Origin: Pseudomonas amygdali
GTDB lineage: Bacteria; Pseudomonadota; Gammaproteobacteria; Pseudomonadales; Pseudomonadaceae
Direction: 5' to 3'
DNA: 64,000 bases
Assembly (NCBI RefSeq): GCF_002699855.1
Contig: NZ_LKBW01000013.1
Coordinates: forward strand, 1-64,000
The notes beneath the pieces were generated by a model, which was not told the origin of the DNA, made no database searches, and worked only from the letters and a program-made list of their open reading frames with translations. Shown here piece after piece: positions 2,732 through 8,064 of this stretch (within the stretch, counting starts at the first letter, position 1; each line of letters begins with the position of its first letter). Position numbers and translations under genes: made by a program.

Positions 2732-2860
2732 ATATTTGTTTTTCTTATCAATTGATCAGTAAAACAAAATTAACAAATCAGTCGACCCGAGAGAAGATGC
2801 AAGTCACCCGATCCTCCGACAGTGCGACTGTCGGTCAACAACTATAAAAGGCGGATCAAC

Positions 2861-3562
2861 ATGGCTGGACTCGATAAACGAGTAACGACCTACGAAGAAG
2901 CCCTTGCCGGGCTGACCGACAACATGACGGTACTCTGCGGTGGTTTCGGTCTGTGCGGCATTCCGGAAAACCTCATTGCGCAGATCAAGCGTATGGGCAT
3001 CAAGGGCCTTACCGTCGTTTCCAACAACTGTGGCGTTGACGGCTTCGGCCTGGGCATCCTGCTTGAGGACCGGCAGATCCGGAAAATGATTTCGTCCTAT
3101 GTCGGCGAGAACGCCTTGTTCGAAAAGCAGTTGCTCAGCGGCGAGCTGGAAGTCGAACTCACCCCGCAAGGCACTCTGGCGGAAAAACTGCGCGCAGGCG
3201 GCGCAGGCATTCCTGCGTTCTACACCGCGACCGGTTATGGCACGCCAGTGGCTGAAGGCAAGGAAACCCGGCAGTTCAATGGCCGCAATGTGATCCTGGA
3301 AGAGGCCATTACCGGCGACTTCGCCTTGGTCAAGGGCTGGAAAGCCGACCACTTCGGCAACGTGATCTATCGTCATACCGCGCAGAATTTCAACCCGGTA
3401 GTGGCCACCGCAGGGCGGATCACGGTGGTTGAGGTCGAGGAAATCGTCGAGCCCGGCGTACTCTTGCCCACTCAGATCCACACGCCTGGCATTTACGTCG
3501 ACCGGGTGATTCAGGGCACCTTCGAAAAGCGCATTGAACAGCGCACCGTCAGAAAATCCTGA
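2861..3562 (+). CDS. dhcA: 3-oxoacid/dehydrocarnitine CoA-transferase subunit A
   Basis: Alpha subunit (233 aa) of a succinyl-CoA:3-ketoacid-type CoA-transferase. With DhcB it moves CoA onto acetoacetate or 3-dehydrocarnitine. The glycine-rich CoA-binding loop [13 protein letters not shown] is at residues about 26-38. The later stretch [23 protein letters not shown] is typical of subunit A. ATG at 2861 has AAGGCGG about eight bases upstream; an in-frame codon at 2822 lacks a ribosome site. It is followed by dhcB after 41 bp and lies under the divergent LysR gene. Confidence 0.88.
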
Positions 3563-3581
3563 CAGAGCAGCTCGGCCATAC

Positions 3582-3590
3582 AACAACAAA
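3582..3590 (+). promoter_or_regulatory. AANAANAA (Hfq/Crc-type) motif before dhcB
   Basis: AACAACAAA lies directly upstream of the dhcB ribosome site (AAAGAG). Hfq/Crc in Pseudomonas represses translation of catabolic genes through AANAANAA motifs at the ribosome binding site. The match is exact, but single occurrences of such short motifs are common. Confidence 0.4.
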
Positions 3591-3603
3591 GAGATTTCAG
3601 ACC

Positions 3604-4260
3604 ATGGCACTTTCTCGCGAACAAATGGCTCAACGCGTCGCCCGTGAACTCAAGGACGGTTATTACGTGAACCTGGGCATTGGGATTCCGACCCTGGTGG
3701 CCAACTATGTACCGGACGACATCGACGTCATGTTGCAGTCGGAAAACGGTCTGCTGGGCATGGGCGCATTTCCGACCGAAGACACCATAGACGCGGACAT
3801 GATCAATGCTGGCAAACAGACGGTTACGGCGCGTATCGGCGCGTCGATTTTCTCGTCTGCCGAATCCTTCGCCATGATCCGCGGCGGTCATGTCGACCTG
3901 ACGGTGCTCGGTGCTTTCGAGGTGGATGTCGAGGGCAATATCGCGTCGTGGATGATCCCCGGCAAGCTAGTCAAAGGCATGGGCGGCGCAATGGACCTGG
4001 TGGCAGGTGCCGACAACATCATCGTGACCATGACCCATGCCTCGAAGGATGGCGAATCCAAACTGCTCCCTCGCTGCAGCCTGCCGCTGACCGGCGCGGC
4101 GTGCATCCGCAAGGTTCTGACTGACCTGGCGTATCTGGAAATCGACAATGGTGCCTTCATCCTCCGCGAACGTGCGCCGGGGGTCAGCGTGGAAGAAATC
4201 GTGGCAAAAACCGCAGGCAAACTGATCGTGCCGGATGATGTGATCGAGATGAGTTTCTGA
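3604..4260 (+). CDS. dhcB: 3-oxoacid/dehydrocarnitine CoA-transferase subunit B
   Basis: Beta subunit (218 aa) of the same CoA-transferase. The catalytic glutamate motif SENGLLGMG is at residues about 46-54, in the expected place for the thioester-forming Glu. The GKLVKGMGGAMDLVAGA stretch in the middle is also conserved. The start follows an AAAGAG site. In P. aeruginosa a thiolase gene (atoB) follows dhcB; here the next gene is the AtoE-like carrier, so acetoacetyl-CoA cleavage must rely on a thiolase encoded elsewhere. Confidence 0.9.
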   Translation: MALSREQMAQRVARELKDGYYVNLGIGIPTLVANYVPDDIDVMLQSENGLLGMGAFPTEDTIDADMINAGKQTVTARIGASIFSSAESFAMIRGGHVDLTVLGAFEVDVEGNIASWMIPGKLVKGMGGAMDLVAGADNIIVTMTHASKDGESKLLPRCSLPLTGAACIRKVLTDLAYLEIDNGAFILRERAPGVSVEEIVAKTAGKLIVPDDVIEMSF

Positions 4261-4338
4261 ACTCAGGCATCTTCGAGCAGGATGGATACATCTCTGTGGG
4301 AGATTCTATGATTTCGTTTTGCTGCCGGTTCCCGGCAG

Positions 4339-4400
4339 TTCGCGGACAAGTCCGCTCCCACAGATTCCGGACAGTTGTGGAAGTGAGCTTGCTCACGAAG
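4339..4400. repeat. REPIN-like pair of Pseudomonas REP sequences
   Basis: Two REP arms face each other. The left arm is TTCGCGGACAAGTCCGCTCC followed by CACA; the right arm is TGTGGAAGTGAGCTTGCTCA followed by CGAAG. They are about 15 bases apart. Each arm contains its own small palindrome around AAG or CTT. This is the usual form of REP doublets in Pseudomonas intergenic DNA. They occupy the 282-bp gap between dhcB and the carrier gene, where no other gene is visible. Confidence 0.75.
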
Positions 4401-4542
4401 ACATTGGTTCAAACACTCGATATCCAGGGACTGTACTGGCCTCTGCGCTCTCACAGGATTTGTCGTTCTGGACACTCTGCGTCCGCAATAGTCGGCTGTT
4501 CAAGTAACTCCCCGATAATAATTACAAAAAGAGGTGCCCCCG

Positions 4543-5961
4543 ATGGCCGCCAACATAGAAGAAAGCCGCTCTGCCCGATTCGCCTTGCGCTGCGCCGCAT
4601 GGGCTGAACGCTGGTTTCCCGATTCATGGGTATTTGCCGCGCTGGCGGTGGTCATCGTCACACTGGCAACACTGGCCATTGGCGCACGTCCGGCCGAGGC
4701 TGCCAAAGCGTTCGGTGACGGGTTCTGGAGCCTGATTCCGTTCACCATGCAAATGGCCTTCGTGGTCATCGGCGGTTACGTCGTGGCCAGTTCGCCGCCA
4801 GCGGTGCGCCTGATCGACCGGCTGGCCCGGGTGCCGCGTAACGGTCGTTCGGCGGTGGCCTGGGTGGCGCTGATTTCCATGCTGGCTTCGCTGCTCAACT
4901 GGGGGCTGTCACTGGTGTTCGGCGGCCTGCTGGTGCGCGCCCTCGCCCGCCGTACCGATCTGCGTATGGATTATCGCGCGGCCGGTGCTGCCGCGTATCT
5001 GGGGCTGGGCGCAGTCTGGGCGCTGGGGCTGTCTTCTTCGGCTGCACAGTTGCAGGCCAATCCGGCGAGTCTGCCGCCTTCGATCCTGGCGATAACCGGC
5101 GTGATCCCTTTCACCGAAACCATCTTTCTCTGGCAATCCGGGGTCATGCTCGCCGCGCTGGTAGTCATATCGTTGATCGTGGCCTATGCCACCGCCCCTG
5201 GCCCGAACAGCGCCCGGGACGCCAAGGCCTGCGGTGTCGACCCGGCATTCAGCCTGCCGCCACTGGCACCTCGCACACGGCCCGGCGAATGGCTGGAATA
5301 CAGCCCGCTGTTGATCATCCTGATGGTGCTGCTGGGGGTCGGCTGGCTGTTCAGCGAGTTTTCGAGCAAACCGGCGATCACCGCAATTTCCGGACTCAAC
5401 ACCTACAATTTTCTGTTCATCATGCTCGGTGCGTTGCTGCACTGGCGACCACGCAGCTTTCTCGATGCCGTAGCGCGGGCCGTACCCACCACCACTGGCG
5501 TGTTGATTCAATTCCCCCTTTACGGTTCGATTGCTGCGTTACTGACCACAGTCAAAGGCGCTGATGCGCAGACCCTGGCGCACTACATCTCGACATTCTT
5601 TACCAGCATTGCCTCCCACGATACCTACGCGATTCTGATGGGCGTCTATTCGGCCATTCTGGGCTTCTTCATTCCGTCGGGCGGCGGCAAGTGGATCATT
5701 GAAGCGCCTTACGTGATGCAAGTCGCCAACGACCTGCAGTATCACCTCGGCTGGGCGGTGCAGATCTACAATGCAGCCGAAGCGCTGCCCAACCTGATCA
5801 ATCCGTTCTACATGCTGCCGCTGCTGGGCGTACTGGGCCTCAAGGCACGTGACCTGATCGGTTTCTCGTTCGTGCAGTTGCTGGTCCACACGCCGCTGGT
5901 GCTGTTTCTGCTCTGGGTATTGGGCACTACGCTGGTCTATACGCCACCGGTAATGCCCTGA
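4543..5961 (+). CDS. atoE: short-chain fatty acid / acetoacetate carrier, AtoE family
   Basis: Inner-membrane carrier of 472 aa with about twelve hydrophobic segments. It resembles E. coli AtoE and the P. aeruginosa PA2002 product, which is encoded in the corresponding dhc/ato cluster. The PSGGGKWIIEAPYVM motif near residue 380 is characteristic of the family. ATG at 4543 is preceded by GAGG at 4531; a codon nine bases earlier has no site. It likely imports the acid activated by DhcAB. The 282-bp REP-containing gap leaves open whether it shares the dhc transcript. It ends 3 bp before a convergent gene. Confidence 0.85.
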   Translation: MAANIEESRSARFALRCAAWAERWFPDSWVFAALAVVIVTLATLAIGARPAEAAKAFGDGFWSLIPFTMQMAFVVIGGYVVASSPPAVRLIDRLARVPRNGRSAVAWVALISMLASLLNWGLSLVFGGLLVRALARRTDLRMDYRAAGAAAYLGLGAVWALGLSSSAAQLQANPASLPPSILAITGVIPFTETIFLWQSGVMLAALVVISLIVAYATAPGPNSARDAKACGVDPAFSLPPLAPRTRPGEWLEYSPLLIILMVLLGVGWLFSEFSSKPAITAISGLNTYNFLFIMLGALLHWRPRSFLDAVARAVPTTTGVLIQFPLYGSIAALLTTVKGADAQTLAHYISTFFTSIASHDTYAILMGVYSAILGFFIPSGGGKWIIEAPYVMQVANDLQYHLGWAVQIYNAAEALPNLINPFYMLPLLGVLGLKARDLIGFSFVQLLVHTPLVLFLLWVLGTTLVYTPPVMP

Positions 5962-5964
5962 TCG

Positions 5965-6291
5965 TCAGCCATTGAACGAGTAGTCACGCTCGACCTTGCA
6001 GATTCGCGTGGTGAACGCCTGATACCAGCGCGCGCGTCCCTGTTCGCGGACCTGGGCGTGATCGGCCTGCTGTTTCCAGGCCAGAATCGCGGTTTCGTCG
6101 CTCCAGTAGGACACGGTGATGCCCAGTCCGTGTTCGTCGCGAGCCGATTCCACGCCCAGAAAGCCGGGCTGCTGCCTGGCCAGTTCTACCATCCGCTGCG
6201 CCGCGTCTGCGTACGCCTGACCCTCTTCAGACGTACGCAGTGAGGTGAACACCACCGCAAAGTAGGGTGTGGGAAAGCGCGCTGCCATCAT
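5965..6291 (-). CDS. antibiotic biosynthesis monooxygenase (ABM) domain protein
   Basis: Single-domain protein of 108 aa with the ferredoxin-like ABM fold. FAVVFTSLRTSEEGQAYADA begins the first strand and helix, and QQPGFLGVESARDEHGLGITVSYWSDE covers the conserved QPGFLG and SYW segments. Relatives are heme-degrading or quinone-forming monooxygenases, or have no known substrate. Its ATG overlaps the stop of the upstream amidotransferase-like gene as ATGA, so the two are probably translationally coupled and act together. The substrate is unknown. Confidence 0.75.
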   Translation of the reverse strand: MMAARFPTPYFAVVFTSLRTSEEGQAYADAAQRMVELARQQPGFLGVESARDEHGLGITVSYWSDETAILAWKQQADHAQVREQGRARWYQAFTTRICKVERDYSFNG

Positions 6292-7022
6292 AACTGATTA
6301 CTCTGCGCGGCCTGGCTGCACGCGCGGACGAACGCAGCAACCACAGGAGATACCTTGCCCTGCAACGCAGCCCGCTCCGGCTGGAACAGCGTGGCGACGA
6401 AGAACGGGTGGCCCTGCAATTCGATACTGCGCACTTCGCCTTCAGGGCCGCGGCCGCTGACTTTCAATGCATCGCCGAACAGCGCTGGCTCAAGCTCACG
6501 ACGCAGACCGTAGCGGCAGTGATAACGCTCCTCGATATTCAGCGTGCCGTAGGCTTGGGCAATCAAAGTGTCGGGTTGCAGGTGAATCGCCGCCACGGAT
6601 TCAACCAGCGAGCAGCTCAATGGTTCGATGATGACGTTTGCCGCCTGCGGCGCAGTTTCGCCGTGCTCGGCGTCTTTCCAGCCCAGTTGATTGCGGGCGT
6701 ACTCCACCAGTGCGTGCTGAAAGCCGCCGCACGTCCCCAGAAACGGTACGAGACGCTCGCGTGCGAAACGAATGGCCGTCAAAGCGCCCTGCATGTCCAG
6801 GTACGGGCTGGCCGGTACACACCACAGACCGTCGAATTCGCCAAGCCGTGCACCGCTGCCGATCTGTGGCGTCGGTAGCCATTCGAAGCTGACCGGCACG
6901 TGAACGGTCTCAGCCGCCATCTCCAACGCCAGGGGAATGGCCTGATGGGCTGGCACATCGGCGTTGAAATCGCCCACCAGCCCGATCTGCAAAGTGTTGC
7001 GTACGTTATTGACTGTGCCCAT
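6288..7022 (-). CDS. class I glutamine amidotransferase-like protein (CTP synthase C-terminal type)
   Basis: Protein of 244 aa similar to the glutaminase domain of CTP synthase but without the synthase domain. The nucleophile elbow PFLGTCGGFQHALVEYARN carries Cys98. At the other end of the active site the family has FVGxQFHPE, with the catalytic His before Pro-Glu; here residues 208-216 read FFVATLFQPE, so Gln214 takes the place of that His. Glutaminase activity by the normal triad is therefore doubtful. ATG at 7022 has AGGGGGCAGGG just upstream. It is coupled to the ABM gene. It belongs to the group annotated as CTP synthase C-terminal region-related proteins; role unknown. Confidence 0.75.
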   Translation of the reverse strand: MGTVNNVRNTLQIGLVGDFNADVPAHQAIPLALEMAAETVHVPVSFEWLPTPQIGSGARLGEFDGLWCVPASPYLDMQGALTAIRFARERLVPFLGTCGGFQHALVEYARNQLGWKDAEHGETAPQAANVIIEPLSCSLVESVAAIHLQPDTLIAQAYGTLNIEERYHCRYGLRRELEPALFGDALKVSGRGPEGEVRSIELQGHPFFVATLFQPERAALQGKVSPVVAAFVRACSQAAQSNQL

Positions 7023-7131: not shown

Positions 7132-8064
7132 TCAGCCAGTTACCGGCGTCAGCACCGGCTGCCCGGAAAAGAACGCCAGCAGGTTATCGTTGACCATTTG
7201 CACACTGTCTCTGGAAGCCTCGGGCGACAGGCCTGCAACATGGGGCGTAAGCACAACATTGCCCAGCGTTTTGAGTACGTCCGGCACAGCGGGCTCATCG
7301 TCGAACACATCCAGCGCAGCCCCGGCAATCTGCTCGTTCTGAAGTGCACTGACCAGCGCATGGGTATCCACCACACTGGCACGCGCAATGTTGACCAGAA
7401 AGCCGTCAGGGCCCAGCGCTTCAAGCACACCGGCATCGATCAGGTGCTGCGTGCCACTGCCACCGGGTGTGGCAATGATCAGGAAATCCGACGCCGCAGC
7501 CAGCGCCTGTGCGGTGGCGTGCCAGGTGTAATCGCAGTCGGTGCGCGGCTTGCGATTGTGATAACCGATGGCGATGTCGAACGCAGCTGCACGCCTGGCA
7601 ATCGCCAGCCCAACCGCCCCCAGTCCGACGATTCCCAGGCGCTTGCCTGCCAGCGACGGTCGAACCACCTTGCGCCACTCGCTACGGCGTACCGACGCAT
7701 CGGCCTGCGGGATGTCGCGTACCAGCGACAGCAACAGCGCCAGCGTATGGTCAGCCACTGTGGCGGCGTTGACGCCTGCACCATTGGTCACGGTGATGCC
7801 GCGTGCCTGCGCGGCGGGCAAATCAACCTTCTCGTAGCCGGCACCGCTCACGCAAATGATGCGCAGGTTCGGCAGTGCATCCATTTCCTCGGCGAAAAAA
7901 CCCAGTGGCCCACGCGTCATCACGGCGCTGATGCTCTTCCCGTGTGCAGCAATTGCCTCGGCACGCAGTTCGGCCGTCGGCGCACGAATCAACTGATAAC
8001 CGCTGCTTTCCAGAATCGGCAAATACATGTCCAGATTTTCCACCAGCACCAATACCGTTGTCAT
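7132..8064 (-). CDS. D-isomer-specific 2-hydroxyacid dehydrogenase
   Basis: NAD(P)-dependent dehydrogenase of 310 aa reducing a 2-oxoacid such as glyoxylate or hydroxypyruvate. The dinucleotide loop is GLGAVG, with YHNRKP at the end of the second strand; the absence of an acidic residue and the presence of Arg-Lys suggest NADPH preference. The catalytic trio is visible as Arg in NIARASVVD, Glu in DVFDDEP and His in TPHVAG. ATG at 8064 begins MTTVLVLVENL; an upstream in-frame extension lacks a ribosome site. It reads in the same direction as the amidotransferase-like gene 109 bp downstream. Confidence 0.85.
   Translation of the reverse strand: MTTVLVLVENLDMYLPILESSGYQLIRAPTAELRAEAIAAHGKSISAVMTRGPLGFFAEEMDALPNLRIICVSGAGYEKVDLPAAQARGITVTNGAGVNAATVADHTLALLLSLVRDIPQADASVRRSEWRKVVRPSLAGKRLGIVGLGAVGLAIARRAAAFDIAIGYHNRKPRTDCDYTWHATAQALAAASDFLIIATPGGSGTQHLIDAGVLEALGPDGFLVNIARASVVDTHALVSALQNEQIAGAALDVFDDEPAVPDVLKTLGNVVLTPHVAGLSPEASRDSVQMVNDNLLAFFSGQPVLTPVTG

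Follow-up and report, generated by a model that had tools for sequence, protein, structure and literature searches.

A stand-alone protein with the CTP synthase glutaminase fold and three conserved cysteines, paired with an ABM gene in Pseudomonas and found in arsenic-type clusters of Streptomyces

The window analyzed here is a stretch of 64,000 nucleotides from Pseudomonas amygdali (contig NZ_LKBW01000013.1, positions 1 to 64,000). Its reverse strand carries two overlapping genes, one for a 244-residue protein related to the glutaminase domain of CTP synthase and one for P0002, a small protein of the ABM family (Table 1). The shared bases hold the TGA stop codon of the first gene (6290-6288) and the ATG start codon of the second (6291-6289). 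The original prediction, made from the sequence alone, had described an amidotransferase domain that stands alone, keeps the nucleophile Cys98, has Gln214 at the place of the catalytic histidine, and shares an ATGA overlap with a single-domain ABM gene. The ORFs, the codons, alignment to the Escherichia coli enzyme, and the Pfam match bear out all of these points. The D-2-hydroxyacid dehydrogenase gene upstream of the pair occupies the place that a divergent LysR gene holds in most Pseudomonas loci read, and it is probably a neighbor rather than part of the system.

Table 1. Features of the gene pair and its upstream neighbor (window positions)
Feature	Position	Strand	Basis
NF004836 glutaminase-fold protein, 244 aa, stand-alone	6288..7022	-	ORF, profile match, structure model
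YqjZ-like ABM protein (P0002), 108 aa	5965..6291	-	ORF, Pfam, 2GO8 match
ATGA stop/start overlap of both genes	6288..6291	-	Read from sequence
His26 codon; Tyr in 19/19 CTP synthases	6945..6947	-	Alignment
Cys98 codon (TGC, read 6731-6729), nucleophile position; motif GTCGG	6729..6731	-	Sequence and alignment
Cys137 codon; CTP synthases have Gly/Ala	6612..6614	-	Alignment
Cys169 codon; CTP synthases have His	6516..6518	-	Alignment
Gln214 codon (CAG, read 6383-6381), catalytic-His place	6381..6383	-	Alignment
D-2-hydroxyacid dehydrogenase, upstream of 244-aa gene, 109-bp gap	7132..8064	-	ORF and profile

In an NCBIfam profile search, the 244-residue protein scored 330.7 bits against NF004836 (cutoff, 260 bits), and the GTCGG around Cys98 matches the GxC/UxG motif of that family. 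NF004836 (PRK06186) is named "CTP synthase C-terminal region-related (seleno)protein." Of the CTP synthase models, the ORF covers just the C-terminal part, and it has no synthetase domain; it is therefore not a CTP synthase, and a separate CTP synthase of the same genome lies on another contig (C266). A structure model built from 25 family sequences (mean pLDDT, 89.6) aligned with 8fve_A over 235 residues (Z, 34.1; rmsd, 1.9), which identifies the predicted fold as that of the CTP synthase glutaminase domain. The protein thus has the modeled fold of a class I (triad) glutamine amidotransferase and, with Gln at the His place, lacks the Cys-His-Glu triad. We rejected the idea that the gene is a pseudogene or a fragment of an ordinary CTP synthase, since it is intact and 81 of 149 Pseudomonas genomes carry it above the cutoff. 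Public records call members of the family CTP synthase (e.g., in Klebsiella and Methylobacter), a label that is very probably wrong in mechanism.

P0002 belongs to ABM family PF03992 (40.7 bits; gathering threshold, 23.1), and its closest solved structure by sequence is Bacillus subtilis YqjZ (2GO8; residues 8-106; E = 1.6e-28), to which the present locus adds linkage with a glutaminase-fold gene. The excerpt available of PMC4835899 describes YqjZ-like proteins as non-heme ABM members with unusual packing. For P0002, "monooxygenase" would, on sequence grounds, be a family name only. On the forward strand, positions 2822 to 5961 of the window hold a subunit pair that, from reading the ORFs, we take to be CoA-transferase-like and, after it, a TIGR00366-type transporter (279 bits against a higher cutoff of 575.75). 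These genes look like a keto-acid uptake and activation operon, and a LysR gene (1841-2731) lies beside them. Promoter/terminator and tRNA scans gave nothing useful.

To quantify conservation, we counted residues in an alignment of 154 members, made up of the window protein plus 153 loci; at the histidine position, 153 of the 154 are readable. CTP synthases and loci duplicating a place already included were left out beforehand. The rows are related and some are nearly identical (L043/L181 and L121/L229), and kinship inflates the counts. One row (L057) is frameshifted near its end and takes its last residues from the wrong frame (a false Tyr at position 216); the other frame reads LFQPER. In a distant member (loci L028/L132 of genome G016), an in-frame TAG stands at the place of Trp48, which may mean a broken gene, a misread, or a sequencing error. 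In the alignment to E. coli CTP synthase, whose residue numbers we obtained by counting along the printed alignment, Cys98 corresponds to Cys379, Glu122 to Glu403, and Gln214 to the histidine of the HPE motif, and Cys169 aligns with the residue just before Arg470. We take the catalytic residues of the HPE motif to be numbered His515 and Glu517. Cys379 is the residue named for CTP synthase in the excerpt available of PMC9138612.

None of the 153 readable members has histidine at the catalytic position, which is occupied by Gln in 145, Val in 6, Met in 1, and Leu in 1 (with one gap), and homologs with a normal His, the observation that the original prediction had named as contrary to it, are thus absent from the set. 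The same position is His in 19 of 19 CTP synthase loci. As to the question, raised at the same time, of whether Cys and Gln are both conserved, position 98 is Cys in 150 members and selenocysteine (Sec; in-frame UGA) in the remaining 4, so that the nucleophile is kept throughout, and Gln214 is common without being universal. The eight members with Val, Met, or Leu, which include all four UGA members, without exception carry Gln in place of the Glu two residues downstream.

Two further cysteines that the original prediction did not mention, Cys137 and Cys169, are each present in 154 of 154 members and are therefore better conserved than Gln214. The only residues invariant in the whole set are P73, Y74, R88, C98, G100, C137, and C169 (counting Sec as Cys). 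Across the 19 CTP synthase loci, position 137 is Gly (16) or Ala (3) and position 169 is His (18, with one gap). By our own cross-species mapping, Cys137 falls in the L13 "wing" loop and Cys169 between two former GTP-binding arginines. In CTP synthase, the L13 wing (with Arg429) and, in the Drosophila enzyme, Arg479/Arg481 line the GTP cleft beside the glutaminase site, as described in the excerpts available of PMC9138612 and PMC8325340. Since these stretches lie at the GTP cleft in CTP synthase, the three thiols probably line one cleft beside the old active site; Cys137 sits in a block of the model with a mean pLDDT of 69.

Other parts of the site have also changed. His26, kept in 107 of 108 rows of a smaller alignment (eight rows of the 154-row alignment are too short to reach position 26), stands where all 19 CTP synthases have Tyr, and the Phe-Gly of the CTP synthase lid is replaced by Ser-Pro-Tyr. 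Glu216 is Gln in 9 of 153 members. Of the glutamine site, the window copy retains Gln102, Glu122, Arg170, and Glu216. Glu122 remains in every one of the 138 rows that do not belong to the arsenic-cluster type described below. The 16 rows that do belong to it have each lost this residue (replaced by Gln, Asp, Gly, or Val) and keep the three cysteines without exception; nine of the 16 have also lost Gln102 and Arg110. Compared with the glutaminase domain of PyrG, the family therefore shares the fold, the nucleophile Cys, and, in most members, Gln102 and Glu122 but lacks the synthetase domain and the catalytic His, has a changed lid, and has two extra invariant cysteines. Three of these changes speak against an ordinary glutaminase: no readable member keeps the His, two invariant cysteines have been gained, and the Streptomyces cluster copies no longer have Glu122. 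They support the earlier proposal that the fold has been repurposed.

The four in-frame UGA codons at position 98 (L122, L123, L174, and L175) come from genomes G701 (of the phylum of a Paenibacillus locus), G767 (of the phylum of an Acidobacteria locus), and G1126 and G986 (both of the phylum of an actinobacterial MAG). Their position agrees with the published Sec/Cys motif GxUxG, which is listed in a review table in the excerpt available of PMC13188914. The corresponding excerpt of PMC12013277 reports a Sec glutamine amidotransferase (COG0504) in Desulfosediminicola and a DUF523 protein among newly reported selenoproteins; the Desulfobacterota, where the Sec form was reported, lie outside our genome survey. 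The window protein shares the Sec/Cys position with the NF004836 family as a member and, with TGC at position 98, is not itself a selenoprotein. Folding of the region after the UGA in two of the four members gave, in both, an 8-bp hairpin with a 3-nt loop starting 12 nt after the UGA. Energies over 54 nt were -14.6 and -13.2 kcal/mol for the UGA members and -11.3 to -18.6 kcal/mol for four Cys members and do not separate the two groups (no shuffles). SelB was found above the cutoff in 2 of 2 UGA genomes tested, 4 of 4 others tested, and 2 of 14 controls, and so does not set the UGA genomes apart.

We then considered the gene partners. At 1e-15, the ABM gene was present in 73 of the 149 Pseudomonas genomes: it adjoins the family gene on the same strand in 71 of the 81 gene-bearing genomes and occurs in only 2 of the 68 genomes that lack the family gene (Fisher P = 1.3e-28, kinship ignored). 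Ten gene-bearing genomes showed no ABM gene at 1e-15; nine of them had none nearby at 1e-4, and the tenth (L140) had none by profile. LysR lies by the family gene in six of these nine loci, and the other three gave no match to the LysR queries. Whether the ABM gene is always adjacent was a further question of the original prediction. The pairing holds for most of the Pseudomonas genomes that have the family gene, and outside Pseudomonadaceae we saw it in a single near relative. Among the near relatives of Pseudomonas, the two genes adjoin in L131 and have one gene between them in L134. The pairing is not obligatory, because no ABM gene lay beside the enterobacterial, actinobacterial, Bacillota, or Acidobacteriota members looked at. 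A family-wide ABM partner was accordingly rejected, the pair having been found only in Pseudomonadaceae and, across one intervening gene, in L134.

Of the 30 Pseudomonas loci listed from the profile search, 26 have a divergent LysR gene no more than 350 bp upstream of the family gene, as do all five actinobacterial records L141-L145; LysR was the most widespread neighbor seen. The window and its nearest relatives (L034-L042) have no divergent LysR gene within this distance; in the tree, the rows nearest to the window protein are those of Pseudomonas congelans and Pseudomonas caricapapayae, of the P. syringae group. In the enterobacterial loci read, the family gene persists with no ABM gene beside it and no divergent LysR gene within 350 bp. 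ORF clustering around 52 loci and Pfam scans found no neighbor common to all phyla; many of the large ORF clusters resemble antisense shadows and were left unused.

A different association was found in Streptomyces, for which we surveyed 199 genomes (the genus label comes from copies grouping with named Streptomyces records in the tree). At E ≤ 1e-55, there were 73 family copies in 70 of these genomes, 15 of them below the family cutoff (260 bits). A BsnM-type EPSP synthase (E ≤ 1e-150) occurs in exactly the 15 genomes that have such a divergent copy, a correspondence for which both thresholds (family score below 260 bits and BsnM E ≤ 1e-150) were picked after the scores had been seen. The BsnM-type gene is within 8 kb of the divergent copy in 14 genomes and about 16 kb away on the same contig in the fifteenth, and all 15 loci have an ArsR-type match. 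According to the excerpt available of PMC12159101, BsnM and BsnN (an EPSP synthase and a phosphoglycerate mutase) are proposed to form arsonopyruvate in the biosynthesis of bisenarsan, both being required as judged by gene disruption, and the bsn cluster has PKS genes, arsenic resistance, and arsenic-dependent regulation.

The layouts of these clusters differ. In the L215 type (six loci), genes for TrxB-like and ArsC-like proteins are present (the latter with 93.5 bits against the ArsC models, below the cutoff of 157.6), and L215 itself has an Acr3 gene (439 bits; cutoff, 282.8). Eight loci, of the L220 and L226/L228 types, encode a molybdopterin oxidoreductase, and those scanned have PKS or KAS III genes as well; the oxidoreductase, of about 860 residues, is a close neighbor of the family gene in L220-L226 and L228. 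Two loci carry the family protein within longer ORFs (L228, 7944-9122, 392 aa; L226, 7539-8684, 381 aa). The C-terminal part of the L228 ORF resembles a 116-residue protein whose gene precedes the family gene in other Streptomyces clusters, indicating a fusion. On a Streptomyces plasmid, five genes with overlapping ends encode a 110-residue protein, an EPSP synthase, an independent phosphoglycerate mutase, a 116-residue protein, and, last, the glutaminase-fold protein. Two records of the plasmid collection PLSDB, CP125156.1 (5.4 Mb) and NZ_LT559118.1 (11.9 Mb), look like chromosomes.

In a tree of 138 rows (built without most of the listed Pseudomonas loci, short rows, and the G1122 copy), the cluster copies included (14 of the 15 and the one from the plasmid) group as a single clade inside the family (support, 100/98), sister to actinobacterial copies of the usual type. 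Because they are one derived clade, an arsenical substrate need not carry over to other members. The Streptomyces relatives sit with BsnM/BsnN-type genes and ArsR, some also with PKS genes, whereas a tblastn search of the 64-kb window (1e-5) found no match to BsnM, BsnN, ArsR, the ArsC-like protein, or Acr3. Thirty related loci of Pseudomonas and near kin likewise had no relative of any of these five, and ten actinobacterial loci with typical copies (L141-L145 and L230-L234) had no BsnM/BsnN neighbor. The case for arsenic chemistry is thus strongest in the Streptomyces cluster copies; we infer such chemistry for the window copy.

Both the NF004836 family model and a selenocysteine form were already in the public domain, so the earlier description of the system as unrecognized is unsupported. 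The excerpts available of PMC13188914 and PMC12013277 are silent on the missing His, on Cys137 and Cys169, on the ABM and LysR partners, and on the arsenic clusters. New here are the absence of His, the invariance of Cys137 and Cys169, the ABM pairing in Pseudomonas, and the co-occurrence with BsnM in Streptomyces. Our literature search found no reported function for the family and no paper placing it in arsenic clusters or with ABM genes; the original bsn papers were outside that search. The bsn paper in Genome Biol Evol reportedly may list a "CTP synthase" gene.

Taken together, the residues suggest that the window protein is probably a thiol or selenol enzyme with a three-cysteine site and not a glutaminase. 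We give about even credence to the fuller reading that the family descends from the CTP synthase glutaminase domain and performs three-thiol chemistry, on an arsenical in the Streptomyces clusters and, with the ABM protein, on some substrate in Pseudomonas. Cys98 (Sec in some lineages) would keep the reactive thiol of the nucleophile elbow, to which Cys137 and Cys169 would add two invariant thiols. Cys/Sec98 may attack or bind a soft, thiophilic, or oxidized substrate, and Cys169 and Cys137 could complete a three-thiol coordination site or a thiol-disulfide relay, as in thioredoxin-type arsenate reductase. That enzyme (ArsC) has three redox-active cysteines, Cys10, Cys82, and Cys89, one of them nucleophilic (excerpt available of PMC2714181); the analogy is with how the three-Cys site works, and we claim no kinship in fold or sequence. 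The substrate of the Streptomyces cluster copies is probably an arsenical, most likely one of a bisenarsan-type pathway, and in Pseudomonas the same chemistry would operate with the ABM protein, usually beside a divergent LysR regulator. The ArsC-like gene already present in L215-type clusters counts against this reading, as do the descent of the cluster copies from one derived clade, the lack of arsenic-gene matches in the window and in the thirty related loci, the low model confidence around Cys137, and the glutamine-site residues that the window copy retains.

Three other explanations deserve weight. The protein may still hydrolyze glutamine or a related amide with another base (e.g., His26), feeding ammonia to, or deamidating, a partner or substrate. 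Such an enzyme would fit the retention of Cys98 (Sec in four), Glu122, and Gln102 in all rows outside the arsenic clusters and of Glu216 in most, as well as the exchange of the constant Tyr for His26. We nevertheless consider it quite improbable: the catalytic His is gone from every readable member, Glu216 has itself become Gln in some, the lid is altered, and amide hydrolysis leaves the two extra invariant cysteines and the use of Sec unexplained. It is also conceivable, if rather doubtful, that the protein is a noncatalytic redox- or metalloid-binding sensor or carrier, working alongside the LysR regulator or handing a ligand on to partner enzymes. Three-thiol sites are typical of As(III) binding, and the divergent LysR genes of the Pseudomonas and L141-L145 loci would suit a sensor. 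However, Sec at the nucleophile position suggests catalysis, and the gene persists in the window clade and in enterobacterial loci that have no divergent LysR gene within 350 bp.

Finally, the arsenic link could be that of a passenger: a copy would have entered the Streptomyces clusters once, for an unrelated step, and unrelated metabolism would be the role of the Pseudomonas pair. Because the cluster copies form one clade, the linkage may reflect a single ancestral event, and the ten actinobacterial loci with typical copies and no BsnM/BsnN neighbor fit this explanation too. The presence of a copy in each of the 15 BsnM genomes, the differing cluster layouts, and the fusion to a small domain in L228 speak against it, and we judge it unlikely. 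Returning to the three-thiol reading, its widest form holds that a glutaminase fold gave rise to a new class of enzymes with three thiols (or a selenol and two thiols) acting on arsenicals or soft electrophiles, which would provide a constant step of organoarsenic biosynthesis in Streptomyces and, in Pseudomonas, the core of a two-gene response that is linked to LysR and includes the YqjZ-type ABM protein; this we put forward tentatively, as a possibility short of probable. The three-Cys signature may explain the use of Sec in some lineages and, with the exact BsnM co-occurrence, makes the family a testable candidate for arsenic or other thiol chemistry.

Some further neighbors were observed outside these groups. 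Of ten enterobacterial loci, DUF523 (the 2-thiouracil desulfurase family) occurs near the family gene in seven, DUF488 in seven, and a CynX-like transporter in nine (e.g., L119, 5003-7900). In L130 (4829-6678), a member of the Val-Pro-Gln type lies 20 bp behind a gene for a class V aminotransferase that resembles cysteine desulfurases (134 bits for the SufS family, below the cutoff).
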